Positions 15,600 to 28,144 of a stretch of 38,711 bases of DNA are shown piece by piece (positions within the stretch are counted from its first letter, which is position 1; each line of letters opens with the position of its first letter). The stretch covers positions 1 to 38,711 of the forward strand of contig VGSE01000005.1 in the NCBI GenBank assembly GCA_016875135.1, in the 5' to 3' direction. The notes beneath the pieces are model-generated. The model was not told the DNA's origin. It searched no databases and saw only the letters and a program-made list of their open reading frames with translations. The stretch comes from Deltaproteobacteria bacterium (lineage in GTDB: Bacteria; Bdellovibrionota; FAC87; UBA2466). Both the position numbers and the translations under genes were made by a program.

Positions 15600-15616
15600 T
15601 TAAGTCCCTTCTGTTA

Positions 15617-15839
15617 ATACCTGCTCCCTTTAATTGGGCTTTTTAAGAGGTTCAAACGGCCATGAAGTTCGTTCACGGTGCACAAGTTATTGGCCGTTTG
15701 ACGATGGGATGAATGATCAAATGAAACTCCAAAAAAACCTGTCAAATATTACAACTTTTGTCCTCTATAAGTCTTTGCAATTTAGGAAAAAATATATCAG
15801 GCCAGCCTCTTAAAAAACCCACTTAAAGGGAGCGGGTAT
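15617..15839 (+). mobile_element. MITE-like element, copy A (223 bp) with 9-bp direct repeats
   Basis: The element runs from ATACCTGCTCCC to GGGAGCGGGTAT with terminal inverted repeats of about 35 bp. It is flanked by a perfect 9-bp direct repeat, CTTCTGTTA, at 15608-15616 and 15840-15848, the mark of transposition. No coding frame of note is inside. An internal perfect inverted repeat pairs TCAAACGGCCA (15652-15662) with TGGCCGTTTGA (15691-15701). Two other full copies are at 17873-18095 (opposite orientation) and 26791-27013. The second half of this copy is the most diverged. Its right edge lies 10 nt from the end of the direct repeat to the ATG of the next gene. Confidence 0.85.
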
Positions 15840-15858
15840 CTTCTGTTACAATATTCTT

Positions 15859-16548
15859 ATGAGAACTTTAACTATTATCTGGTTATTAATGATTTTATCG
15901 GCCGAGCCTGTTTTGGGGAATAGCACCTCCGATGAGCTAAACTTGGATAACCTTCAAGTAAAACCCGAGCTAATTAGTAATAGCGGAATAAGCCGTATTA
16001 GAGAGCATTTATTAGCGGTAGAGAAGAATATTACCCTCACTCAAGCAAACTTAGATGCGACTCAGAAAAATATTGCGGTGATGGAGTCAGAACTCAAAGA
16101 GCTCGAGGTTATCGCCCAAGAACATCTACGGCTTAAAGAACGCTACCAGGACTTTTTGACCCATGCTACCAAAGAAAACGACAAAAATAATAAAGCGATG
16201 TCTGAAATTGAAGCCTTTCAAAAGAAAATCGCGTCTTTTGCGAAAAAAGGACACGAAACCCAGACTAAAAGCCAGTTATCCGAATTAGAATCAAGCGAAA
16301 ACGAAAAAAACGAACGCGAGACTTGGAGAAAAGATAATCAACAAAAAACATCGAGAGTTCAAGATCTTCTGTTAGGTATTGAAAAAAATCTAAAATCGAT
16401 TGCAGCCAAAAAGACCCCACTTTTGAACCAGCTAGAAACCTGGAAGTCGAGACAATCAGATTACGAAAATGTACTTTCTAAATTAAACCAAAAGAAACTG
16501 ATTGCTGAACGTTTTATCGCTTCCCCCAAAGATAAGTTGAACGAATAA
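15859..16548 (+). CDS. Secreted coiled-coil protein of unknown function
   Basis: A 229-residue protein I do not recognise. A signal peptide covers about residues 1-20 (ITIWLL-type hydrophobic core ending near VLGNS). From about residue 40 to 215 the sequence is Glu, Lys and Gln-rich with heptad-like spacing and no cysteines, predicted as long coiled coils, so it is probably periplasmic. No Shine-Dalgarno site precedes the ATG. TACAAT at 15847-15852 lies 6 nt upstream and may be a -10 box giving a leaderless transcript. The gene is bracketed by MITE-like copy A on the left and an isolated element end on the right. Confidence 0.75.
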   Translation: MRTLTIIWLLMILSAEPVLGNSTSDELNLDNLQVKPELISNSGISRIREHLLAVEKNITLTQANLDATQKNIAVMESELKELEVIAQEHLRLKERYQDFLTHATKENDKNNKAMSEIEAFQKKIASFAKKGHETQTKSQLSELESSENEKNERETWRKDNQQKTSRVQDLLLGIEKNLKSIAAKKTPLLNQLETWKSRQSDYENVLSKLNQKKLIAERFIASPKDKLNE

Positions 16549-16553
16549 AGTTA

Positions 16554-16572
16554 ATACCTGCTCCCTTTAAGT
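16554..16572 (+). repeat. Isolated end of the MITE-like element (copy D)
   Basis: ATACCTGCTCCCTTTAAGT is identical to the consensus left terminus of the 223-bp element, then the match stops. It begins 5 nt after the stop of the coiled-coil gene. The preceding GTTA is shared with the left flank of copy A, giving 21 matching bases between the two sites. It sits inside an inverted repeat, CGAATAAAGTT (16542-16552) and AACTTATTCG (16579-16588), that could act as a weak hairpin. It may be a deletion relic or a one-ended event. Confidence 0.7.
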
Positions 16573-16689
16573 TTGATCAACTTATTCGATCATGACTCAC
16601 CTTGCCCTAAAAGACGTCTAAAAATCCTTCCTTTTCCGTTATGGCCGTACTAAAACAAAAGACCACTTTGAATTGAATTAGGAGTCGCT

Positions 16690-17826
16690 ATGCAAGAGAT
16701 TACCCAAGTCCCTCCCCTGGACCTTAAAAGACAATACTCTCCTCTTGCCAAAGAAATCACAGCTGCATTCACAAAAATATTCGAATCGGGGGGATTTATC
16801 TTGGGGCCTGATGTTCAAGCCCTCGAACAAGAATTAGCTTATTATGTATCTGCCAAAAGAGCTATTGCTGTGACGAGCGGAACCGATGCTCTTTGGTTAG
16901 CTTTAAAGGCCATTGATATTCAACCTGGAGATCAGGTTCTCACCTCACCATTTACATTTTTTGCCACAGTAAGTGCTATTTGTAATGCGGGCGCTACACC
17001 GGTATTTGCAGATATTTGCCCTGACTCTTTCAACTTATCCGCTGAAAAAACAGAAGAGGTCCTAAAGAATGACAGAGACCGTAAAATTAAGGCCATCATG
17101 CCTGTTCATCTGTACGGTCAAGCAGCTAACATGGTTCCTATCTTGGCCCTAGCGGAAAGATACAAGTTACACGTTATCGAAGATGCTTGTCAGGCAATTG
17201 GAACACACCACGATAAAGGAGCCGTGGGAACCCTAGGCCATCTAGCCGCCTTTAGTCTGTTCCCAACTAAAAACCTAGGGGCTTTTGGAGATGCCGGTTT
17301 TGTGACCACCAATGATGTGTCTTTAGCGAATAAAACTACCCTCTTAAGAACCCATGGTTCAACAGTTAGATATCATCATGAGATCATCGGAAGTAATTGT
17401 CGCATCGACACACTTCAGGCAGCCATTTTGAGAGTTTTACTACCTAAACTTGAGAGCTGGATTACCCAGCGACAAACCGCTGCAGCCTACTACGATGAAA
17501 ACTTTGCCTCCCTTAAAGATATCATTCAAACTCCTAAGAGAGTACCTTACAGCAATCATACTTTTCATCAATACACACTAAGGGTTAAAAATGGAAAACG
17601 TAATGAGTTAACTGAAGTTCTGACCAAAAATAAAATTGGAAACTCAATCTACTATCCCATCCCATGCCATCTTCAAAAAGCTTTAGCTCATCTGAATTTA
17701 GAGCTGGGATCTTTTCCAGAATCGGAATTAGCTGCTAACGAAGTCCTATCTATCCCTATTTTTCCTGGAATCACCCAGGAGGAACAGGACTACGTCATTA
17801 AAACCATTCAAAACTGGGCAAAATAG
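16690..17826 (+). CDS. DegT/DnrJ/EryC1/StrS-family sugar aminotransferase
   Basis: A 378-residue PLP enzyme of the family that aminates nucleotide-linked keto-sugars for polysaccharide or lipopolysaccharide building. Visible landmarks are SGTDAL (63-68), the PLP-contacting EDACQA (164-169) and the lysine that would form the Schiff base, K194, in FPTKNLGAFGDAG. Its length is normal. AGGAG is 6 nt upstream of the ATG. It stands alone, with a terminator-like hairpin and MITE-like copy B downstream. The substrate cannot be told from sequence, but the glycosyltransferase and galU nearby fit an envelope sugar role. Confidence 0.9.
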   Translation: MQEITQVPPLDLKRQYSPLAKEITAAFTKIFESGGFILGPDVQALEQELAYYVSAKRAIAVTSGTDALWLALKAIDIQPGDQVLTSPFTFFATVSAICNAGATPVFADICPDSFNLSAEKTEEVLKNDRDRKIKAIMPVHLYGQAANMVPILALAERYKLHVIEDACQAIGTHHDKGAVGTLGHLAAFSLFPTKNLGAFGDAGFVTTNDVSLANKTTLLRTHGSTVRYHHEIIGSNCRIDTLQAAILRVLLPKLESWITQRQTAAAYYDENFASLKDIIQTPKRVPYSNHTFHQYTLRVKNGKRNELTEVLTKNKIGNSIYYPIPCHLQKALAHLNLELGSFPESELAANEVLSIPIFPGITQEEQDYVIKTIQNWAK

Positions 17827-17831
17827 GAAAG

Positions 17832-17872
17832 CTCTCTAACCGAATAAGTTAGCGAGTTTGGAATAGTTTTTT
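17832..17872 (+). terminator. Probable intrinsic terminator after the aminotransferase gene
   Basis: CTCTCTAAC (17832-17840) pairs with GTTAGCGAG (17848-17856) around a 7-nt loop with one mismatch, and a run of six T follows at 17867-17872. The run is offset by about 10 nt from the stem, which weakens it. The T-run also forms part of the direct repeat beside element copy B, so the insertion may have landed in the terminator. Confidence 0.4.
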
Positions 17873-18095
17873 ATACCTGCTCCCTTTAAGTGAGTTTTTT
17901 AAGAGGCGGGTCCGATATATTTTTTTCTTAAATTGCAAAGACTTATAAAGGACCAAGGTTATAAGATTTGATAAGTTTCTTGGAGTTTCATTTGATAAAT
18001 CATCCCATCGTTAAACGGCCAATAACTTGCGCACCGTAAACGAACTTCATGGCCGTTTAAACCTCTTAAAAAGCTCACTTAAAGGGAGTGGGTAT
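17873..18095 (-). mobile_element. MITE-like element, copy B (223 bp), inverted
   Basis: Same 223-bp length as copies A and C but in the opposite orientation, placed between two converging genes. The outer ends again read ATACC and GGTAT. The flanks TAGTTTTTT (17864-17872) and TAGGTTTTT (18096-18104) match at 8 of 9 bases, a decayed 9-bp target duplication. The internal inverted repeat pairs TTAAACGGCCA (18011-18021) with TGGCCGTTTAA (18050-18060). Compared with A and C, both arms have changed together, keeping the pairing. Confidence 0.85.
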
Positions 18096-18107
18096 TAGGT
18101 TTTTTAC

Positions 18108-18986
18108 TTATAGACTGGTTGAGACAATGAACTGAACTGTTCCTTGCTCAATTCCTCTGTCTACAATCATGTCGGTGAAATTGTTATTTTGAATTAAATT
18201 CTCAGAGTAAAATCCTAACCCAACTACAACGTTTGAATTTACGGTATAGTAGACTTCAGGATTTATCCAAATTCTGTGGAGCCATTTTTCATTGTTTTCC
18301 GCTAAGCTACTGTAACCCCGCGTTCTTAAATCAGATACAAGAAATGGGCACATGAATTTAATTTTATCCGAAAAAACATATTCCAAACCCATACTGGCTC
18401 TATTTTCAAAAACAGGATTTGCTAAGGGACCCTTTCCTGTGATTGTTCCAGCACTGCTATAAATGTGAATAACCGGAACCTCTTCAAAAGATAGAGCGAA
18501 GTTTGAAGTGGCTTGATACTTTAATTTTACATAATTGCGTAGCGCCGTAACCATTCCAGCGTCTCGCCGAACCGTTGAAGTTGGGAGGTATTGACGACCC
18601 TCGTAACTTAGAGATAGCTTTCCGTCATTGTATAAATCGTTAAACTTTTCTTTTAAATAGCCATCCGCAAGAGAAGCGTTTAACCCACTTACTGCAGCTG
18701 ATTTTGGCTCATAAATATTGGTATTGAAATCTTGCTTATAAACAACGCTGTTTTTTTGATCAAACTGATATCCTAAAGTTGCGGAGTCTTCCGAGTGAAA
18801 CTCACCGACTAGCATGCGATAAGACGGCCGGGCTTCAAAATTACCAAGGATTTTAGACTTATTGCTCGTAGTTGAAGAGCCAAATTGAGTTTTATTAACA
18901 GATTGATCGGTTTCATAAGGAGCTGGTCCAGTTGCCGAGAAAACAACTGAAGTTATTAGTAAAAACACTAAAAGCAGATTAGTCAT
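18108..18986 (-). CDS. Secreted, probable outer-membrane beta-barrel protein
   Basis: A 292-residue protein I cannot name. I chose the ATG at 18986 because GGGAGG lies 4 nt upstream and it gives a clean signal peptide (residues 1-19, a hydrophobic run ending near FSATG). An upstream in-frame start would put 17 non-signal residues first. The mature part has many short alternating polar and hydrophobic, aromatic-rich strands, for example KLSLSYEGRQYL and VVVGLGFYSENL, suggesting a transmembrane barrel. Its 3' end lies 12 nt from MITE-like copy B. Function unknown. Confidence 0.7.
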   Translation of the reverse strand: MTNLLLVFLLITSVVFSATGPAPYETDQSVNKTQFGSSTTSNKSKILGNFEARPSYRMLVGEFHSEDSATLGYQFDQKNSVVYKQDFNTNIYEPKSAAVSGLNASLADGYLKEKFNDLYNDGKLSLSYEGRQYLPTSTVRRDAGMVTALRNYVKLKYQATSNFALSFEEVPVIHIYSSAGTITGKGPLANPVFENRASMGLEYVFSDKIKFMCPFLVSDLRTRGYSSLAENNEKWLHRIWINPEVYYTVNSNVVVGLGFYSENLIQNNNFTDMIVDRGIEQGTVQFIVSTSL

Positions 18987-19059
18987 TGAACCTCCCAAAA
19001 CTTGGAAGGTTTTATCGAAACATGGGTTATATAGCAACCATCAAATCTTTAGATTTTGG

Positions 19060-20181
19060 TTAGTTTGCCAATTTTGAAACAAGTCGACCTAGCTCTAAAG
19101 CATATTTTTCCCAAGACAATTGGGAAGCGGTTTGAATCGAAAGCTCCCTAAGTTCATTTAAACGTTCTGAATCTTTAATTAAAATCTGTAGAGATTCTTC
19201 AATGGGCTTCACAGAACCAGCCGGAACGCGCCAGGGTGAATTCTTTAAAAATGTAAAATCAGCGGCTCCGCAGTGATTGGTGGTAAGTGGCACGACTCCC
19301 GAAGCCATCGCCTGAATTAAGGTTTGACCAAACCCATCCTCGAGCGTCGGGAACACAAAGACATGATGATTTCTAATCTCTTTGGCTAGTTCATTCTGAG
19401 GCAATGGTTGTCGATAATTAAAATGGTTATATTTAGCCAATGTCTGTTTGAACTCGGGTTCCACTGCCCCAATTAAATTGAGTTCAATCTGTTGCGGGGA
19501 AAAGTTTTTAGTGGCTTCAAGTAAATATTGCACCCCTTTTCGAAAACTAATAATTCCAAAATACAATACCCTTAGTGGCGAGGGCTCAGGCCATTTTTCA
19601 ATAGGTTTAAATCTTTCTAAATCCACTCCTAATGGCAACACTCTAACTTTATCCCCGGAAACTCCTTGTTGAATAAAGGTCTCTCGGGCAAATTCGGATA
19701 AGACCCAAATCTGATCTGCCAACTCATATTCCTGGAGCTCTCTCTCCAAACAAAAACTTCTATTAGGAAATCGAAACCCGAATTTCTCATATTCCTTAGC
19801 CAATAGGTCATACTGAAATTGAATATGAGTTGAATCCCTCATGAGAACGTGAAAATTAGCGGGTCGATTTATTAAGGTTTCAAGGGAAAATGATGACCAT
19901 CCAATGAACAGATTGGGCCGGGCCTCTATTATCTGCTTAGACAAAAACCGACCAAACAACTTCATCTTCAAAGCATCGCCAGGAGATTCCAATCCGATTT
20001 TCTTAGCCACCCGATAGATCACTTCAGGCCAGACACAATTGGTAACAGGACGCGCAAAGCTGGGAAATCGCTTTTCAGGGAGGGAAGTATAAATCGAAGT
20101 TAAATAGCCCAGTCCGCTCAATGCTTGATACATAAAGTCAGAGTGGAATCGCCCTCCGACACCTATTCCAATCGATTTCAT
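19060..20181 (-). CDS. GT4-family glycosyltransferase
   Basis: A 373-residue retaining glycosyltransferase with the GT-B double-Rossmann layout. The C-terminal half carries LPLGVDLERFKP, RVLYFGIISFRKGVQYLLEA and FVFPTLEDGFGQTLIQAMASGVVPLTT in parts. In the usual E-x7-E motif the second Glu is Gln here (EDGFGQTLIQ). Such enzymes add a sugar from a nucleotide donor to a lipid or glycan. I chose the ATG at 20181 over a TTG two codons upstream. TATAAT on the minus strand (20189-20194) lies 7 nt before it and no Shine-Dalgarno is present. It diverges from lgt. Confidence 0.85.
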   Translation of the reverse strand: MKSIGIGVGGRFHSDFMYQALSGLGYLTSIYTSLPEKRFPSFARPVTNCVWPEVIYRVAKKIGLESPGDALKMKLFGRFLSKQIIEARPNLFIGWSSFSLETLINRPANFHVLMRDSTHIQFQYDLLAKEYEKFGFRFPNRSFCLERELQEYELADQIWVLSEFARETFIQQGVSGDKVRVLPLGVDLERFKPIEKWPEPSPLRVLYFGIISFRKGVQYLLEATKNFSPQQIELNLIGAVEPEFKQTLAKYNHFNYRQPLPQNELAKEIRNHHVFVFPTLEDGFGQTLIQAMASGVVPLTTNHCGAADFTFLKNSPWRVPAGSVKPIEESLQILIKDSERLNELRELSIQTASQLSWEKYALELGRLVSKLAN

Positions 20182-20188
20182 AATCAAG

Positions 20189-20194
20189 ATTATA
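20189..20194 (-). promoter_or_regulatory. -10 box 7 nt before the glycosyltransferase ATG
   Basis: A perfect TATAAT on the minus strand ends 7 nt from the ATG at 20181, so transcription would begin at or just before the start codon. No good -35 box is seen at the right spacing (CCATTT is the nearest). No ribosome binding site exists in the interval, which fits leaderless translation. Confidence 0.4.
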
Positions 20195-20259
20195 CCTTAA
20201 CCATTTAGCCAAAATGGAGTATTTTAAATTCTCAAATAAGATTATAAAAAACAATAAAC

Positions 20260-21066
20260 ATGCCATTTTTACATCCCAACATTGACCCCGTAATATTAAG
20301 ACTCTGGGGCCCCTTTCAAATTACTTGGTATTCCGTTCTCTATGTGGGTGGATTTCTTCTCGCGAGAACCATTCTAAAGTACTTAGCCAAAGATGAACGA
20401 TTCCAATTTACCGAACAGCAAATGGACGATTTTGGAATCTGGCTTTTGGTTGGAGGGGTTATCGGAGCTCGAATCATCTACTGTGTCGTTTATGACTATA
20501 GTACCTTCATCCAGAATCCTTTGTGGTTATTTCAAACTTATAAAGGTGGACTCTCGTTTCATGGTGGGCTAGTGGGAGTTATTTTAGCCGCTATCATTTT
20601 CTCCAGAAAAAATAAGATCCCATTTTGGAATTTAGCCGATGCGATGGCTTTAGCCACTCCTACAGGATTAGCCATGGGCCGTATTGGAAATTTTATCAAT
20701 GGAGAACTCTACGGTCGACCAACAAGCGTTCCTTGGGGAATGGTGTTTAGAGCTGGGGGACCTGTTATTCGTCATCCTTCGCAACTATACGAGTTATTGC
20801 TTGAAGGAATCATTCTTTTTTGTGTTCTTTGGTACTGTAAAAATCGACTAAAAAAAGATGGTCAGTTGTCTTTACTCTTCTTAATTGGTTATACCTTTTG
20901 TCGATTTGTTGTGGAGTTTTTCAGAGAGCCTGATGTTCACTTGGGCTATTTTTTCCTAGGGCTAAGTATGGGACAGATTCTTTCTCTAATTCAACTTCTA
21001 GCAGCCGTCGTTTTGACTTTGGTCCTGTTTAGGGAAAAAAAACATCCTCAGAAAAAAAGGTCCTGA
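20260..21066 (+). CDS. lgt: Prolipoprotein diacylglyceryl transferase
   Basis: A 268-residue inner-membrane enzyme that transfers diacylglycerol from phosphatidylglycerol to the lipobox Cys of prolipoproteins. Diagnostic motifs are HGGLVG (101-106), GRIGNFINGELYGR (140-153) and RHPSQLYE (171-178), with about seven membrane segments. The C-terminus ends in a lysine-rich tail. No Shine-Dalgarno is seen before the ATG. It diverges from the glycosyltransferase and converges on a small basic-protein gene 7 nt away. Confidence 0.96.
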   Translation: MPFLHPNIDPVILRLWGPFQITWYSVLYVGGFLLARTILKYLAKDERFQFTEQQMDDFGIWLLVGGVIGARIIYCVVYDYSTFIQNPLWLFQTYKGGLSFHGGLVGVILAAIIFSRKNKIPFWNLADAMALATPTGLAMGRIGNFINGELYGRPTSVPWGMVFRAGGPVIRHPSQLYELLLEGIILFCVLWYCKNRLKKDGQLSLLFLIGYTFCRFVVEFFREPDVHLGYFFLGLSMGQILSLIQLLAAVVLTLVLFREKKHPQKKRS

Positions 21067-21073
21067 ACCCCAC

Positions 21074-21445
21074 TTAGACCGAGGAACTTTCAATTCTCTT
21101 AGAACGTTTCTCTTTAGAAAGATTTTTACTCAACTTTGGAGCCCAGTTGCCTAATCGATAACTCAGCTGTGCCTTTTCGTGGACTAGGGTCGAACTAATT
21201 TTTCGTTCAATTTTTCTTTTCGATTTTGAAAGTTGAGCAATCAGTTTGTGGACATTAATCTGTTTTAAAGATTTACTGCCACACAAAATGGCACTAGTTC
21301 TCAATCTTTTTATAGTGTTCTCTAAATCTTCGTACACTGTCACAAGCTCGTTTAATTTCTTAGCCGGCTGAGCCACTTTAATTTTTATCCCGTTAGAAAA
21401 TGATTTGAGCTGCCGGTTTTTCGATTTTTTTACGCTTCGCTTCAT
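21074..21445 (-). CDS. Small basic hypothetical protein
   Basis: A 123-residue protein I do not recognise. It is strongly basic (Lys and Arg-rich at both ends), with a helical, heptad-like middle (about residues 30-85: ELVTVYEDLENTIKRLR and following). No signal peptide or membrane segment is seen, and there are no family motifs. The charge suggests nucleic-acid or ribosome contact, but that is only a guess. Its 3' end converges on lgt with a 7-nt gap. Confidence 0.55.
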   Translation of the reverse strand: MKRSVKKSKNRQLKSFSNGIKIKVAQPAKKLNELVTVYEDLENTIKRLRTSAILCGSKSLKQINVHKLIAQLSKSKRKIERKISSTLVHEKAQLSYRLGNWAPKLSKNLSKEKRSKRIESSSV

Positions 21446-21502
21446 TCATGGGCCCCAAGACAAAATGTAAGCATTGCCTTAAAGAGCGTAGAATAGCAAG
21501 TT

Positions 21503-22201
21503 TTAGAATGTGGGAAGAAAAAAACTCAGACCCGCAAAGACAGAAAAGTTGCTGCGGGGTTTCCGGGAGGAATAAACCTCAGTCAAGGTTACATAGTCTC
21601 TAAGATCAATCAATAATGCCAAAGCATCGCTCGTAAAAATTTTGACCCCCAACCCAAAATCAAAGGCAGGTTCCATTCCTTGTCTCACCGTAGATTCCTT
21701 AGGGTCGGAGTTACTAAGCTTAATGGTTTTCGTATTAGCCATTCCCACCCCTAACACAGTATAGATATCAAAATAAAGAACTTGGCTGCCAAAAAACCTT
21801 ATCTTTCCATAAATCGGGGATACGATTAAATTAGACGTAGCTAACAAGTTGATCTGACTAAATTGAACATTACTCAGACTATTTGCAGTCACTTTGCCTT
21901 TAATATCAGCAGTAATAGAAGGCATGCCGAACTGAACATCGGCCACTTCCCACCCAAAATGGTCGCTAAAATGCCAAGTCGCTTTTGCTCCAACCAAGTA
22001 GTGATTGACAACCGAATCATAGGGCATCACTCCGGCAGTAGAACCAATTTCTATTTTCTTTGTTTTATAAAAATATTTGTTTCGAACAACCGCATTAATC
22101 GAACGCTCATAACCAGTTTGAGTCTCTGTTGATTTAACTTTAGCAGCGATAAGCTCTGAAGTGACTGTAACGATAAGAAAAATAACAAGAAGCTGTTTCA
22201 T
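21503..22201 (-). CDS. Outer-membrane beta-barrel domain protein
   Basis: A 232-residue protein with a signal peptide (residues 1-20, MKQLLVIFLIVTVTSELIAA). The segment AVVRNKYFYKTKKIEIGSTAG followed by VNHYLVGAKATWHFSDHFGWEV resembles the small outer-membrane barrel family common in myxobacteria and Bdellovibrio-like bacteria, a resemblance recalled from memory and not searched. The C-terminus ends in Phe, as barrel proteins often do. It diverges from the M50 protease gene. Function unknown. Confidence 0.7.
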   Translation of the reverse strand: MKQLLVIFLIVTVTSELIAAKVKSTETQTGYERSINAVVRNKYFYKTKKIEIGSTAGVMPYDSVVNHYLVGAKATWHFSDHFGWEVADVQFGMPSITADIKGKVTANSLSNVQFSQINLLATSNLIVSPIYGKIRFFGSQVLYFDIYTVLGVGMANTKTIKLSNSDPKESTVRQGMEPAFDFGLGVKIFTSDALALLIDLRDYVTLTEVYSSRKPRSNFSVFAGLSFFLPTF

Positions 22202-22256
22202 GGTGCTCTCTATAAGGGGGTTTCGTTAATTGTCACATGCCTGTAGAATTTCTTCA

Positions 22257-22272
22257 ACGACTAGAGAGTCGT
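22257..22272. promoter_or_regulatory. Palindrome abutting a -10 box upstream of the M50 protease
   Basis: ACGACT (22257-22262), the tetraloop AGAG and AGTCGT (22267-22272) form a perfect 6-bp palindrome. TATACT at 22275-22280, a good -10 box, begins 2 nt later, and the ATG at 22288 is 7 nt after that. The placement inside the promoter spacer suggests an operator. In RNA the hairpin would form only if transcription began further upstream. Confidence 0.4.
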
Positions 22273-22287
22273 GTTATACTACGCACT

Positions 22288-22926
22288 ATGTCGACCAATC
22301 TACTTAACGTGGTTTTGTTAATCCCGGTTTTTCTTTTTTCTCTTTGCTTTCACGAATTTGCTCATGCTTGGGTTGCAGTAAAACGAGGAGATCCCACCCC
22401 CCAACTACTCGGACGGCTTTCGATGCATCCCATGGCTCATGCCGACATTTTAGGAACCCTCATTCTTCCCATTTTAGCTATTTACACAGGAGCTCCATTT
22501 TTTGGATGGGCTAAGCCGGTTCCCATTGAATTCAGAAATTTAAAATACGGTCGAAGAGACTACGCTCTAATAGCAGCCGCGGGGCCTATGGCTAATATTT
22601 TATTAGCTTTGGCAGCAACAGCTCTTTTAGCTGTTTTGATTCGCTTGCCTTTTCAAAATCAATTTTTTGAAACCGTACAACTCTTTTCATTAGTGAGTAT
22701 TCAAGTAAATTTAATGCTAGCTTTTTTTAATCTAATTCCGATCGCACCCCTCGACGGATTTAATGTCTTACAAGGCATAGTCCCTAAACGAATTGGATTG
22801 ATGCTTAATAAAACAACTCAAGTATCAGGATTAATTTTATTACTACTTCTAGTTACTGGTTCTCTTAAATACATCGCTATTCCGGTCACTTTGGTTTTTA
22901 GATTTCTTGTGAATTCTATCTCTTAA
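22288..22926 (+). CDS. Site-2 protease (M50) family membrane metalloprotease
   Basis: A 212-residue polytopic membrane protein. The zinc motif HEFAH is at residues 22-26 in the first membrane helix, and the third ligand region is NLIPIAPLDGFNVL with its conserved Asp. Such proteases cut substrates within the membrane, often in regulated signalling. I chose the ATG at 22288 because the family begins with the helix directly before HExxH. An in-frame ATG at 22237 would add 17 residues and has no ribosome binding site either. Being short, it lacks PDZ domains, like the compact FtsH-type-independent M50B proteins. The substrate is unknown. Confidence 0.85.
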   Translation: MSTNLLNVVLLIPVFLFSLCFHEFAHAWVAVKRGDPTPQLLGRLSMHPMAHADILGTLILPILAIYTGAPFFGWAKPVPIEFRNLKYGRRDYALIAAAGPMANILLALAATALLAVLIRLPFQNQFFETVQLFSLVSIQVNLMLAFFNLIPIAPLDGFNVLQGIVPKRIGLMLNKTTQVSGLILLLLLVTGSLKYIAIPVTLVFRFLVNSIS

Positions 22927-22959
22927 CTAAATTCTGCCGTGTTTCGTGACAGTATTTAA

Positions 22960-24978
22960 CTAAAGCAAAGTAACCGGGTCGATATCGGCTGCCATTTGAA
23001 CTGAACTCTTTTGGCGTTTTTCCCAATCGAATAAAAGCTTTAGTAAGCTTTGAAGCTCCCTCACAGATTCACTTTTGATTAGGCATTGCCAACGATACAT
23101 CTTTTTAAGCTTGGAAATCGGGGCCTCTGCCGGACCTAATATTTGACATTTTGGAAACCGATTTTCCACTTCCTTTTGTAGTATTTGAACGACTTGGTTG
23201 GCAAAAGCCTGCACTCTCTGAGGGTTCGCATGTTGAAACCGCAAAATCGCAGCTCTATGAAAGGGCGGAAAATGAAACACCTTCCTAGCCGCCAGTTCGG
23301 AACGATAAAACTCCTCTTGTTCATAACGACTAGCTGCAACTAAAACCGGATGTTGCGTATGAATGGTTTGAATCACGACTTCACCGGGGACGTCTGACCT
23401 TCCGGCCCTTCCTGAAACTTGAGTGATAATCTGAAAAGTTCGCTCGTTAGCCCTAAAGTCGGGTAGGTTTAAACTGGCATCAGCTAACAGGATCCCGACT
23501 AAAGCAATCCCCGGAAAATCATGACCTTTTGTCACCATCTGTGTTCCAATGACTATGTCCACTTCTTTCTTCTGGATTTGATTGATGACATTCTCAAGAT
23601 CTTTTTTCCCTTTTATAACCCCCCTATCCATGCGACAAATTCGCGCCTTAGGAAAAAGCGAGACCAATGCTTTTTGAACCTGCTCTGTTCCTAAACCCAT
23701 AGTTTCTAACTTAACTCCGTTACATTCCTCACAAGTGTGAGGAACCTTCTTTTGTGTCCCACAATAATGGCATTTGAGAAGCGGGGGATTTTGGTAATAT
23801 GTTAGCGATACATCACAGTTCTTACAACGCCATGTATGACCGCAATCTCCACAAAATAAAAAATGAGCATAACCCAACCTATTTAGATAGAGCATCACCT
23901 GCTGCCCCTGATTTAAGGTGTTCTCTATCGCTCGAAAAAGCCCCATACTCAGCCATCGAATTTCCGGTGAATACCATTGGGTTTTGTCCTTGATGTCGAT
24001 AAAAAAAGTTTTAGGCATCGGTCGGCGGTTAACTCGTTCTGGAAGTTTTAGATGAATATACTTTCCAGTAGTCGCATTTAGATACGTTTCAACAGAAGGG
24101 GTTGCTGATCCTAAAATAACTTTTGCATTTTGTAGTTTAGCACGAACCACTGCCAGATCTCTGGCATTGTAACGAAGAGAATCTTCCTGCTTAAAAGAAG
24201 TCTCATGCTCCTCATCCACAACAATAACACCTAGGTTCTTAATAGGAGCAAAGATAGCTGATCGAGCTCCAATAACAATTTTAGCTTTTCCTTGAGTGAT
24301 CTGTTCCCATTGTTGAATTCTTTCTTTGGGAGTTAGATCACTATGCAGAACAGCTATTAAGTTTGGAAACCTTTTTGAAAAACGTTCTGTCAGTTGAGGA
24401 GTAAGAGCGATCTCCGGAACCAGAATAATTCCTGTTTTTCCGGATTCAATCACCGAAGATAACACTTGCATATAAACTTCAGTTTTTCCACTTCCAGTGA
24501 CACCATGGAGAAGATAAGGTCGTTTTTCTTGGGGCTCCAAAATACTTTGGACTGCTTTCTTTTGATCTGCGTTCAACTCATGTCCGGAAACAACCGGCTC
24601 TAAATGTTCTTCGGGCAGAACACTCGACAAACTCAACTTTCTTTTACTTGGTTTTTTGGGGTTCCAAAAAGGCTTGGGAATAGCCGTAGAAAAAACTTCT
24701 CCCAGGGGATGACAATAATAATCGCTCACCCATTTTAAAAACTCATACATTGCCTCATCAAAAACCGGCTCCGACACCAAGACCTCTTTGACCGATTTCA
24801 ATTTTGAAAGCTCTACTTCGGCTTTCTTAGGAAAACCCAAAACAAATCCATACGCAGTTCTTGTCCCAAATGGAACAGCGACCACACTCCCTTGTTTTAA
24901 GGAGCAACCCAGCTCATCATCGATTAAATAGTGAAAAGAACCCGGAACTCTTACGGGAATTGCAACATCAACAATCAT
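22960..24978 (-). CDS. priA: Primosomal protein N' (replication restart helicase)
   Basis: A 672-residue superfamily 2 helicase that recognises stalled forks and reloads DnaB. An N-terminal DNA-binding domain (1-100) is followed by Walker A GVTGSGKT (159-166), the DEEH box (254-257), and a zinc-binding region with eight cysteines (375, 378, 384, 387, 402, 405, 415 and 418). The helicase C-terminal motifs follow (QMVTKGHDFPG, QVSGRAGR). Its ATG overlaps the stop of the upstream gene by 4 nt, so it is translated as the last gene of a galU-hypothetical-priA set. Confidence 0.97.
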   Translation of the reverse strand: MIVDVAIPVRVPGSFHYLIDDELGCSLKQGSVVAVPFGTRTAYGFVLGFPKKAEVELSKLKSVKEVLVSEPVFDEAMYEFLKWVSDYYCHPLGEVFSTAIPKPFWNPKKPSKRKLSLSSVLPEEHLEPVVSGHELNADQKKAVQSILEPQEKRPYLLHGVTGSGKTEVYMQVLSSVIESGKTGIILVPEIALTPQLTERFSKRFPNLIAVLHSDLTPKERIQQWEQITQGKAKIVIGARSAIFAPIKNLGVIVVDEEHETSFKQEDSLRYNARDLAVVRAKLQNAKVILGSATPSVETYLNATTGKYIHLKLPERVNRRPMPKTFFIDIKDKTQWYSPEIRWLSMGLFRAIENTLNQGQQVMLYLNRLGYAHFLFCGDCGHTWRCKNCDVSLTYYQNPPLLKCHYCGTQKKVPHTCEECNGVKLETMGLGTEQVQKALVSLFPKARICRMDRGVIKGKKDLENVINQIQKKEVDIVIGTQMVTKGHDFPGIALVGILLADASLNLPDFRANERTFQIITQVSGRAGRSDVPGEVVIQTIHTQHPVLVAASRYEQEEFYRSELAARKVFHFPPFHRAAILRFQHANPQRVQAFANQVVQILQKEVENRFPKCQILGPAEAPISKLKKMYRWQCLIKSESVRELQSLLKLLFDWEKRQKSSVQMAADIDPVTLL

Positions 24979-25814
24979 CGATAACTCAGAAGTGTTTTTA
25001 ACTTATCATCCAGGAAAGCTGAGGATGAATTCAAAGACCGTTGCCAAAGCTGCATCCACTCCTTCAACTTGCGGCCATTGAGCTGTCTGATAACAATCAG
25101 CTCTGATTGAATCATTTCTCTATTTTCTTTCATGAGATACGATCTTTTGGGGAAAAATGCCTCTTTGAAAGATGTTAGATTCAAATCAAAATTCCAAATA
25201 AAATTATCACTTCCCTCAGACCACTCTAGCCGCTTTAGACTTTTTAGAGACTTATCAAAATAAACTACACGCTTTGAATTTCCATCTTGACTCCCCATCA
25301 CTGCAATCGAAGGTCCCGACGGCAGTAAAGCCAGGTAAATAGAATTATGCTGGAGGTAGTTTGTTTTAATATCCCAAGTTTGAGGCTCTCCTTGGAGTTC
25401 AAATCCATCTTTAAACTGCTTCAACTGGTCCCAACGAAGAAAGCGTTCCGATATTAAAACATCGCGAAATTCGATAGCGGAATTTGCAATAAATGATTTC
25501 AAAAAGAGAAGTGATCTGGCACCAATTTTTTGATCTCCAACTAGATAGTTTCTCTTTTCTAATTGCCCGGAAATCCAATTACCGTTGGCTCCTACCTTCC
25601 ACAAAAACCTAGGTCCTCGCCTGTCCAGAACTATTCTCTCTTCAATCTCAGACCACTCACCCGAGCCACCGAGAACCTGATGTAAAAAGCCAAACTCAAC
25701 ATCATCAGAAAATTTTCTATCATCAAAAATCTCTTTTAAAACAGCTGAGACAGGCGGAATAAAAGCATGCGCTTTTAAGGACATTATAAAAATTAAGACT
25801 AAAACGGACTTCAT
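24975..25814 (-). CDS. Secreted hypothetical protein between galU and priA
   Basis: A 279-residue protein I do not recognise, with a signal peptide at residues 1-17 (ending KAHAF). The mature part has a strand-rich middle (EERIVLDRRGPRFLWKVG, LALLPSGPSIAVMGSQDG) that recalls lipoprotein-carrier or sorting-type folds, but that is weak. Both ends overlap neighbours by 4 nt (ATGA): the galU stop overlaps its ATG, and its stop overlaps the priA ATG. Translation of the three is therefore coupled. Its conservation beside priA would be informative. Confidence 0.65.
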   Translation of the reverse strand: MKSVLVLIFIMSLKAHAFIPPVSAVLKEIFDDRKFSDDVEFGFLHQVLGGSGEWSEIEERIVLDRRGPRFLWKVGANGNWISGQLEKRNYLVGDQKIGARSLLFLKSFIANSAIEFRDVLISERFLRWDQLKQFKDGFELQGEPQTWDIKTNYLQHNSIYLALLPSGPSIAVMGSQDGNSKRVVYFDKSLKSLKRLEWSEGSDNFIWNFDLNLTSFKEAFFPKRSYLMKENREMIQSELIVIRQLNGRKLKEWMQLWQRSLNSSSAFLDDKLKTLLSYR

Positions 25815-26698
25815 AAAGATTTCATGTAATCGCGAAGACGTTGATTCAATTCCGGTCTTCTCAAAGCGGCATCAATTTGAGCCCTCATGTAAAACATTGG
25901 ATTTCCGATGTCATACCGGCATCCTCTCAACAAAACCCCATGTAATTTTTTTTGAGCGCAAAGCTTATCCATCGCATCGGTCAATTGAATCTCTCCGCCA
26001 ACTCCAGGTTGAGTCTCCTTTAAAGCATCAAAAAGGATAGAATCAAAGACGTAACGTCCGATTATCGCATAGGGACTAGGAGCCACTTCAGGTTTGGGCT
26101 TTTCCACTGTTTTTAGAACAATCTCGGGTTTTTCCCCCAAAGATTTTCCTGCCAAATCCAAGATTCCATAAGAAGGACTATCTGAGATCGGAATTTCAAC
26201 CACACCTACCGTTGAAGAGTCGAGCTCTACAGCAGCATCGACTAACTTTCTCAAAGGAGACTTGGCCTGATTGATAGCATCCCAAGGTGGAAAAATCTCA
26301 TCCCCTAGACAAACAGCAAACTTTTCCTGGCCGATAATATGTCGGGCGCAATAGACCGCATGGCCCAATCCTAATGGTTCTTTTTGCCGAACCGAAATAA
26401 CTTCACAAAAAGTTCCAATCTTTCGAACCTTATCGGCAAGAACCTCTTTACCTCGTTTTCGAAGCCAACTTTCCAAGTTCGGAGAAAGATCGAAGTAGTC
26501 CTCTAAAGCATGTTTACCTTTGCTGGTAATAAAAATGACTTGTTCAATCCCTGCAGATAAAACCTCTTCTGCAATAAAATGAATGGTTGGAGTATCAATG
26601 ATGGGAAGCAATTCTTTAGGGACCTCTTTAGTAAAGGGAAGTCCGCGGGTTCCTAAACCGGCCACTGGAATAACAACTTTTTTTACAGTTTGATTCAT
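25811..26698 (-). CDS. galU: UTP-glucose-1-phosphate uridylyltransferase
   Basis: A 295-residue nucleotidyltransferase that makes UDP-glucose for polysaccharide and lipopolysaccharide. The N-terminal nucleotide-binding loop GLGTRGLPFTKEVPKELLPI (residues 14-33) is the hallmark, with the ligand loops LGDEIFPPWDA and ILDLAG following. Length and order match the bacterial GalU family. It is the first gene of the coupled set with a secreted protein and priA. The upstream gap holds MITE-like copy C, in the divergent region shared with lpxC. Confidence 0.93.
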   Translation of the reverse strand: MNQTVKKVVIPVAGLGTRGLPFTKEVPKELLPIIDTPTIHFIAEEVLSAGIEQVIFITSKGKHALEDYFDLSPNLESWLRKRGKEVLADKVRKIGTFCEVISVRQKEPLGLGHAVYCARHIIGQEKFAVCLGDEIFPPWDAINQAKSPLRKLVDAAVELDSSTVGVVEIPISDSPSYGILDLAGKSLGEKPEIVLKTVEKPKPEVAPSPYAIIGRYVFDSILFDALKETQPGVGGEIQLTDAMDKLCAQKKLHGVLLRGCRYDIGNPMFYMRAQIDAALRRPELNQRLRDYMKSL

Positions 26699-27187
26699 CT
26701 TTTTTACCCTTAAACCGATAGTTTTCCCTCTACCCAGTTATAAGTCAAAGTACTAAATCGAGCGTCATTTTTGTTTAACCCTAAATTAACATACTTGCTC
26801 CCTTTAAGTGGGCTTTTTAAGAGGTTCAAACGGCCATGAAGTTCGTTCACGGTTGCCAAGTTATTGGCCGTTTGACGATGGGATGATTTATCAAATGAAA
26901 CTCCAAGGAAACTTATCAAATCTTATAACCTTGGTCCTCTATAAGTCTTTGCAATTTAAGAAAAAATATATCGGACCCGCCTCTTAAAAAGCCCACTTAA
27001 AGGGAGTTGGTATTAAGTTATCTTCTAACCCAATTTTTTGTAGCTTTTTAAATGCGAAAACAGAGAAATATGTTGTTTTTATAACACAACCAGGACAGTA
27101 TTGCGCGCCGAGCAAATACAGGTTTAAGGCTAATTTGTTGAGAAGTCGGCCTCTGGTATAGGACTTGCTGTCGATTGAACTAAGGTT
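26699..27187. other. Intergenic region between galU and lpxC
   Basis: 489 bases without a convincing gene. It contains the galU leader (26699-26790), MITE-like copy C (26791-27013) and the lpxC promoter region (27014-27187). TTGTTG (27135-27140) and TATAGG (27157-27162), 16 nt apart, are a weak candidate promoter for lpxC. The ATAGGACTTG there also occurs in the rpmJ promoter spacer (11696-11705). The two short minus-strand frames in this region run through the repeat and are not credible. Confidence 0.7.
26791..27013 (+). mobile_element. MITE-like element, copy C (223 bp)
   Basis: Third full copy, same orientation as copy A and the same length. Ends read ATACTTGCTCCC and GGGAGTTGGTAT. The flanks TAAATTAAC (26782-26790) and TAAGTTATC (27014-27022) agree at 7 of 9 bases, a more decayed target duplication. 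Internal pairings are the clearest here: TCAAACGGCCA with TGGCCGTTTGA (26826-26836 and 26865-26875), CCAAGG with CCTTGG, and GGTCC with GGACC. It lies between the divergent galU and lpxC genes, where it could affect either promoter. Confidence 0.85.
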
Positions 27188-28144
27188 ATGGATTCTAAAT
27201 TTTTTTCTACAATCGAAGGGTATCGGATTCAAAAAACACTCAGCGTTCCGGTAAGTTTTAAAGGAGTCGGCCTTCACTCAGGTGTCTCTTCAGACCTTAA
27301 ATTAATCCCTGCTCCGGTTAATCATGGAATCCTCTTCGAGAGAATAGACCTGCCCAGAAAACACCTGATTCCAGCCCACTTTAAGTCTGTAGTCTCAACT
27401 TCTTTGGCAACGTCTATCGGTTTTAAAGAGGACCCCGCTTACAGAGTTTCAACAGTCGAACACCTAATGGCAGCTTTATATGCTTTGGGAATTACCAATT
27501 TAAAGATTGAATTAAAGGGTCCAGAGATTCCGATTCTAGATGGAAGCGCTACTATTTTTATTCGAGACATTCTACATTCGGGAATAGAGCTTCAGCCCTT
27601 TTCACATCAAAAACTTGAAGTAGTTAAGCCCATCAAAGTTTATCGTGAAGGCACTGTTTGCGAGTTACTTCCCAGAGAGAGCCTCAGATTAACAACGTCG
27701 GTAGACTTCCCTCATCCGGCAATTGGGCTTCAAACCTTTGCGCTAGACTTAACGCCCAAATCATTTAATGACGAGATCGCACAGGCTAGAACTTTTGGAT
27801 TCCAATCGGATTTGGAAAAGCTTCGGGCAAATAACTTAGCTTTGGGTGCCTGCATGGAGAACGTCCTAGCCTTTTCTGAAACAGAAATTATGAATCCGGA
27901 AGGGCCTCGATTTTCAGATGAATGTGTTCGTCACAAACTCTTAGATGCCATTGGAGATTTAGCCCTTTGTGGATCTTGGATAGCAGGAGAATTGGTTAGC
28001 TTTAGAGGTGGTCATTCAATTCATTTAACCTTACTTCAGTCGTTAAAACAGCACGCCTCACACTGGAAACTCATTCCAGCAGAACCGCTTAAGGTTTCCC
28101 TGAAGCGCCAGATAAGACAGCCTGTTGTGTCTCTCAGTATTTAA
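27188..28144 (+). CDS. lpxC: UDP-3-O-acyl-N-acetylglucosamine deacetylase
   Basis: A 318-residue zinc enzyme for the committed step of lipid A synthesis. Zinc ligands H92, H249 and D253 (EHLMA, VRHKLLDAIGD) and the catalytic E91 and H276 (RGGHSIH) correspond to E. coli H79, H238, D242, E78 and H265. AAGG lies 3-6 nt before the ATG. It shows the organism makes lipopolysaccharide. Its 3' end overlaps the converging thiQ-like gene by 11 nt. Confidence 0.97.
   Translation: MDSKFFSTIEGYRIQKTLSVPVSFKGVGLHSGVSSDLKLIPAPVNHGILFERIDLPRKHLIPAHFKSVVSTSLATSIGFKEDPAYRVSTVEHLMAALYALGITNLKIELKGPEIPILDGSATIFIRDILHSGIELQPFSHQKLEVVKPIKVYREGTVCELLPRESLRLTTSVDFPHPAIGLQTFALDLTPKSFNDEIAQARTFGFQSDLEKLRANNLALGACMENVLAFSETEIMNPEGPRFSDECVRHKLLDAIGDLALCGSWIAGELVSFRGGHSIHLTLLQSLKQHASHWKLIPAEPLKVSLKRQIRQPVVSLSI

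Follow-up and report, generated by a model that had tools for sequence, protein, structure and literature searches.

The window, the whole stretch of 38,711 nucleotides that was analysed, carries three copies (A, B and C) of a short repeat bounded by terminal inverted repeats and flanked by direct repeats, and an isolated fourth end. The original prediction had placed the copies at 15617-15839, 17873-18095 and 26791-27013 with a length of 223 bp each, and both coordinates and lengths are exact to the base. The terminal inverted repeats, which had been put at about 35 bp, measure 34 nt and are complementary at 31 of 34 positions (91%) within each copy, and recounting the flanking direct repeats gave the same values as before, 9/9 for A, 8/9 for B and 7/9 for C. 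The features in window order are:

15608..15616, no strand: left target duplication of A, CTTCTGTTA
15617..15839, plus strand: MITE copy A, 223 bp, member of the older subfamily, 11% from the family consensus
15617..15650, plus strand: left terminal inverted repeat of A, 34 nt, 91%
15806..15839, minus strand: right terminal inverted repeat of A, 34 nt, 91%
15840..15848, no strand: right target duplication of A, CTTCTGTTA, 9/9
16554..16572, plus strand: isolated relic end comprising 18-19 bp of the terminal repeat and lacking a partner
17864..17872, no strand: target duplication of B, TAGTTTTTT
17873..18095, minus strand: MITE copy B, 223 bp
17873..17906, plus strand: terminal inverted repeat of B on the window's left, 34 nt, 91%
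18062..18095, minus strand: terminal inverted repeat of B on the window's right, 34 nt, 91%
18096..18104, no strand: target duplication of B, TAGGTTTTT, 8/9
26782..26790, no strand: target duplication of C, TAAATTAAC
26791..27013, plus strand: MITE copy C, 223 bp
26791..26824, plus strand: left terminal inverted repeat of C, 34 nt, 91%
26980..27013, minus strand: right terminal inverted repeat of C, 34 nt, 91%
27014..27022, no strand: target duplication of C, TAAGTTATC, 7/9

A and C share the plus orientation while B is inverted, and the three are 88-90% identical to each other in pairwise comparison. The claimed lack of coding capacity holds, as no open reading frame of 80 aa or more lies inside A, B or C; a mechanical ORF of 97 aa (26984-27277) starts outside C and ends within its right edge. 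The isolated fourth end is likewise real (16554-16572, ATACCTGCTCCCTTTAAGT) and is missing from the same intergenic stretch in congeners. At the right border of A (window 15840-15859) the target duplication abuts TACAAT, a -10-like hexamer 5' of the gene at 15859, which is kept in congeners and which the insertion of A cuts off from its former upstream sequence.

The window holds only a small part of the family. In the 2.66 Mb assembly of 290 contigs the 20-bp MITE end has 173 matches (85 + 88) versus 1 + 0 for the reversed pattern, and an internal 19-mer matches 101 times. From the stretches fetched around the matches listed, at least 133 copies or fragments were located, about 50 of them full length (52 span both ends), counts that are minimums and that bear out the earlier guess of many copies in the genome. 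Divergence from the consensus ranges from 1.3 to 17%, and the tree is star-like with two subfamilies, a younger and an older one, the latter including A, B and C; the copies at C71:10524 and C103:4826 are among the youngest, and the 99% copy at contig C71 suggests recent activity. The distribution is narrow: among 85k species an exact 23-mer matched only in UBA2466, the congener, and a search of 369 genomes of the phylum yielded matches only in the genome itself, in the congener G004 and in G076, where a weak 73-bp stretch was judged to be a chance match. No clear copy was found outside the genus among these 369 genomes, and the viral contigs searched gave no match.

How did the copies arrive at their sites? 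Perfect 9-bp direct repeats flank 19 of 51 full-length copies and a further eight match at 8 of 9 positions, and duplications of the expected kind are accordingly present at 27/51, while shuffled flank pairings give about 0.4 perfect 9-bp repeats, mostly self-pairings. Duplications of other lengths (5-8 or 10-13 bp) occur at none of the 51. Targets are rich in AT and show dyad symmetry, approximating NAAANTTTN; of 28 insertions whose duplications could be recognised none falls within an ORF, compared with 443 of 600 random points (74%). At site A the flanking genes are separated by 259 bp in the window and by about 25-35 bp in five congeners, in which TTTCTGTTACAAT or TTCTGCTACAAT occurs a single time at the place of the window's CTTCTGTTA-[223 bp]-CTTCTGTTACAAT; in the clearest congener the site is empty at base level, with the single 9-mer TTTCTGTTACAAT. 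The gap at site B is 281 bp versus 30-45 bp in three congeners (in congener G002 the intergenic region of 185 bp lacks the MITE and is not a clean empty site), and site C has a gap of 489 bp, as against 162-214 bp in five congeners. Empty sites, proposed earlier as a check, therefore exist: most congeners lack an insertion at A, B and C, with one copy of the 9-mer at A. Because the congener sites are unoccupied, the insertions at A, B and C most likely postdate the species split. Being non-coding, shorter than about 600 bp, bounded by inverted repeats, flanked by duplications of fixed length, dispersed, and matched by empty sites in relatives, the 223-bp repeats are with near certainty a MITE family, and copy number, 9-bp duplications and empty sites all favour the non-autonomous transposon signature that had been read from the window.

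Two explanations without transposition have to be considered. If the family consisted of dispersed structured regulatory RNAs or terminators retained for function, its strictly intergenic location, the strong predicted fold of copy A (-77.7 kcal/mol, z -6.45) and the fact that conservation peaks in the inner segments of the arms would be accounted for. However, any long inverted repeats would give such a fold, an Rfam search returned no match, and compensated changes, of which 32 were observed in the terminal arms versus 12.7 in shuffles, are almost confined to these arms, with almost no base-pair covariation in the interior among the copies. Subfamily ancestry explains part of the agreement between the arms, and templated correction of the palindrome is a possible source of it. 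Moreover, the copies are missing from orthologous congener sites, and exact 9-bp duplications together with empty sites speak for insertion, which makes the RNA or terminator explanation very improbable. Even less credence can be given to spread by segmental duplication or recombination. Tandem arrays with a period of 212 bp are present and speak for it, but the dispersed copies have unrelated flanks and exact element ends, and the 9/9 or 8/9 direct repeats at 27 of 51 copies refute such a spread for them; tandem growth may still be recombinational.

These arrays belong to a part of the family that the original prediction missed, its picture being incomplete in that tandem dimers and internally deleted forms also exist. 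Thirteen close junctions between units were found, most of them head to tail. In the commonest junction the first unit stops at 212 and the next starts at 1 (C6, C12, C21, C26, C62, C97); C47 and C167 instead have a complete first unit, followed by one that starts at 17-19. Perfect outer 9-bp duplications surround the compound elements at C26, C21, C12 and C49. The compound elements at C49 and C108 contain an identical 22-bp spacer that is not part of the element (CTGGGGCATATTTAAAAAGAAA) and have different flanks, and since the spacer recurs at unrelated sites, one dimer or more seems to have been mobile as a whole. Such mobility does not extend to all dimers, as C108, C62:6395 and C97 have no outer duplication. 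At least 16 elements or fragments reach contig ends, which suggests unresolved arrays. The internally deleted forms (29, 52, 76 and 135 bp) retain the two tips, and several also retain the duplication; those at C32:8921-8972 (52 bp) and C4:36696-36724 (29 bp) are barely more than two tips, with duplications of 9/9 and 8/9, respectively. We infer that copies sometimes become joined head to tail; two intact copies would then form a perfect palindrome, and the loss of 11-16 bp on one side would turn it into a looped palindrome, whereupon the joined copies would persist or move as dimers. That the MITE moves by copy-out-paste-in via such joined copies, the dimers themselves being mobile units, is a tentative proposal based on the outer duplications and the shared spacer, and one we consider less likely than not. 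If true, it would show how a bacterial MITE can give rise to satellite-like tandem arrays.

Which transposase could drive the family? The window lacks one, and the partner had been supposed to be elsewhere or lost. Location elsewhere agrees with the data and simple loss does not, as the genome contains two C-terminal transposase halves, each ending at a contig break (C13 and C210), whose IS ends (ATACCTGGCCCTTTTGATTAGGC) match the MITE end at 18 of 23 positions. Searching the whole genome for transposases gave only fragments and no intact transposase with exact MITE ends, and no long element enclosing a transposase was found behind any of the MITE-type ends that were listed and fetched; one long pairing of MITE ends (C118:309-3903) was rejected as an autonomous element, since it holds ordinary host genes. 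Intact IS-like elements are found in four relatives (1271 bp in G001, 1278 bp in G005, 1150 bp in G010 and 1149 bp in G003), all with ends of the form ATACCTG...CAGGTAT. The autonomous relative with the same ends that had been sought was thus found in part, with similar ends in relatives and only partial IS in the genome itself. The elements of G001, G005 and G010 each contain one transposase ORF of 303-330 aa and show no clear flanking duplication, and that of G003 is flanked by a perfect 9-bp duplication, TATTCCTTA. Own-genome contigs C30, C42 and C202 carry single IS-type ends (ATACCTGGCCCTCTTGATTAGG or near variants of it) with no transposase attached, the remains of additional IS or IS-derived copies. 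In a stretch of C92 (its positions 1-160) about 33 bp of an IS end are joined directly to mid-transposase sequence, an internally deleted IS derivative and a possible first step towards a MITE.

The best match of the transposases is the NCBIfam IS1 model (NF033558; E 1e-10 to 2e-11), and since their 42-44 bits stay far below its curated cut-off of 100 bits the elements are called IS1-related and not members of IS1. A Pfam search of the transposase gave no family above cut-off, and the transposase shares 25% identity with a plasmid protein that carries an IS1 family transposase annotation. In an alignment with an E. coli IS1 segment that matches annotated IS1A transposases at 100%, FDEM and TDAK sit on the first two catalytic positions (MDEQ and MTDG in IS1); of the DDE triad the first two acidic positions align in this way and the third catalytic residue was not located. 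A 9-bp duplication is a known trait of IS1 elements, and IS families other than IS1 also produce it. The closest link to the MITE comes from the congener G004, which carries one MITE relative of full length (BLAST identity 74%) and a partial one, the latter having ATACCTGCCCCCTTTGAGTGGAC in common with the IS of the same genome, identical over 23 of 23 terminal bases. IS ends in the remaining relatives agree with the MITE ends at 17-20 of 23 positions, except in G003 (14/23). Beyond the terminal 23 bp or so no likeness between MITE and IS was found, and because the interiors share nothing the MITE did not arise from any known IS copy by simple deletion.

A different, undetected transposase, belonging to an IS with exact MITE ends that was lost or is unassembled, would explain why the IS ends of the own genome reach no better than 18/23 and why the likeness is limited to the tips, the IS1-related element then resembling the MITE there only; the length of the duplication, shared by several IS families, is compatible with it as well. 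The identical ends in G004, the agreement in the other relatives apart from G003, the G003 element with a 9-bp duplication of its own and the failure of any listed MITE-type end to lead into a long transposase-bearing element argue against it, and we regard it as a minority possibility. The driver is quite probably the IS1-related element. According to this preferred mechanism, the MITE ends would be recognised by a transposase encoded elsewhere, a putative single-ORF IS1-related protein of about 300 aa with zinc-ribbon, helix-turn-helix and DDE-type core that would act in trans and insert the MITE into AT-rich intergenic targets of the NAAANTTTN form, duplicating 9 bp. For the explanation as a whole, a non-autonomous MITE that a transposase encoded elsewhere inserts with 9-bp duplication, we estimate a probability of about 0.88.

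As mobile DNA the MITE is of a well-known kind, to which it adds a new family, and it leaves general knowledge of such DNA unchanged. Our literature search found no MITE paper for this bacterial group (Bdellovibrionaceae). The value of the family lies in its large size within one genus of the Bdellovibrionaceae, in its graded series of full copies, internally deleted forms, dimers and relics, and in a testable MITE/partner pair, the candidate IS1-related driver having ends identical to those of a MITE relative in a congener. With MITEAba12, Sulfolobus SM1-SM4 and ERIC it shares the small non-coding form, inverted repeats, target duplications and many intergenic copies, its copy number being inside the range reported for prokaryotic MITEs (30-711 for ERIC, 25-44 for Sulfolobus SM; PMC10969869). 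In contrast to known prokaryotic MITEs, it has its own sequence and ends (ATACCTG...), turned up in a single genus in our searches, and forms tandem dimers with outer target duplications. As in IS30-type tandem dimers and copy-out-paste-in intermediates (PMC9333248), head-to-tail copies appear to act as mobile units, but the MITE dimer junction lacks 11 bp of the right end or about 16 bp of the left end and is known here from genome sequence alone. The candidate partner, like IS1 and the related IS1595, has a zinc-binding N-terminus and a helix-turn-helix, its FDEM and TDAK motifs align with MDEQ and MTDG of IS1, and its G003 copy has a 9-bp duplication. It differs from IS1 in being a single ORF of about 300 aa in an element of 1.15-1.28 kb, in scoring 42-44 bits against the cut-off of 100, and in its ends, which read ATACCTG where those of IS1 are of the GGTG type.
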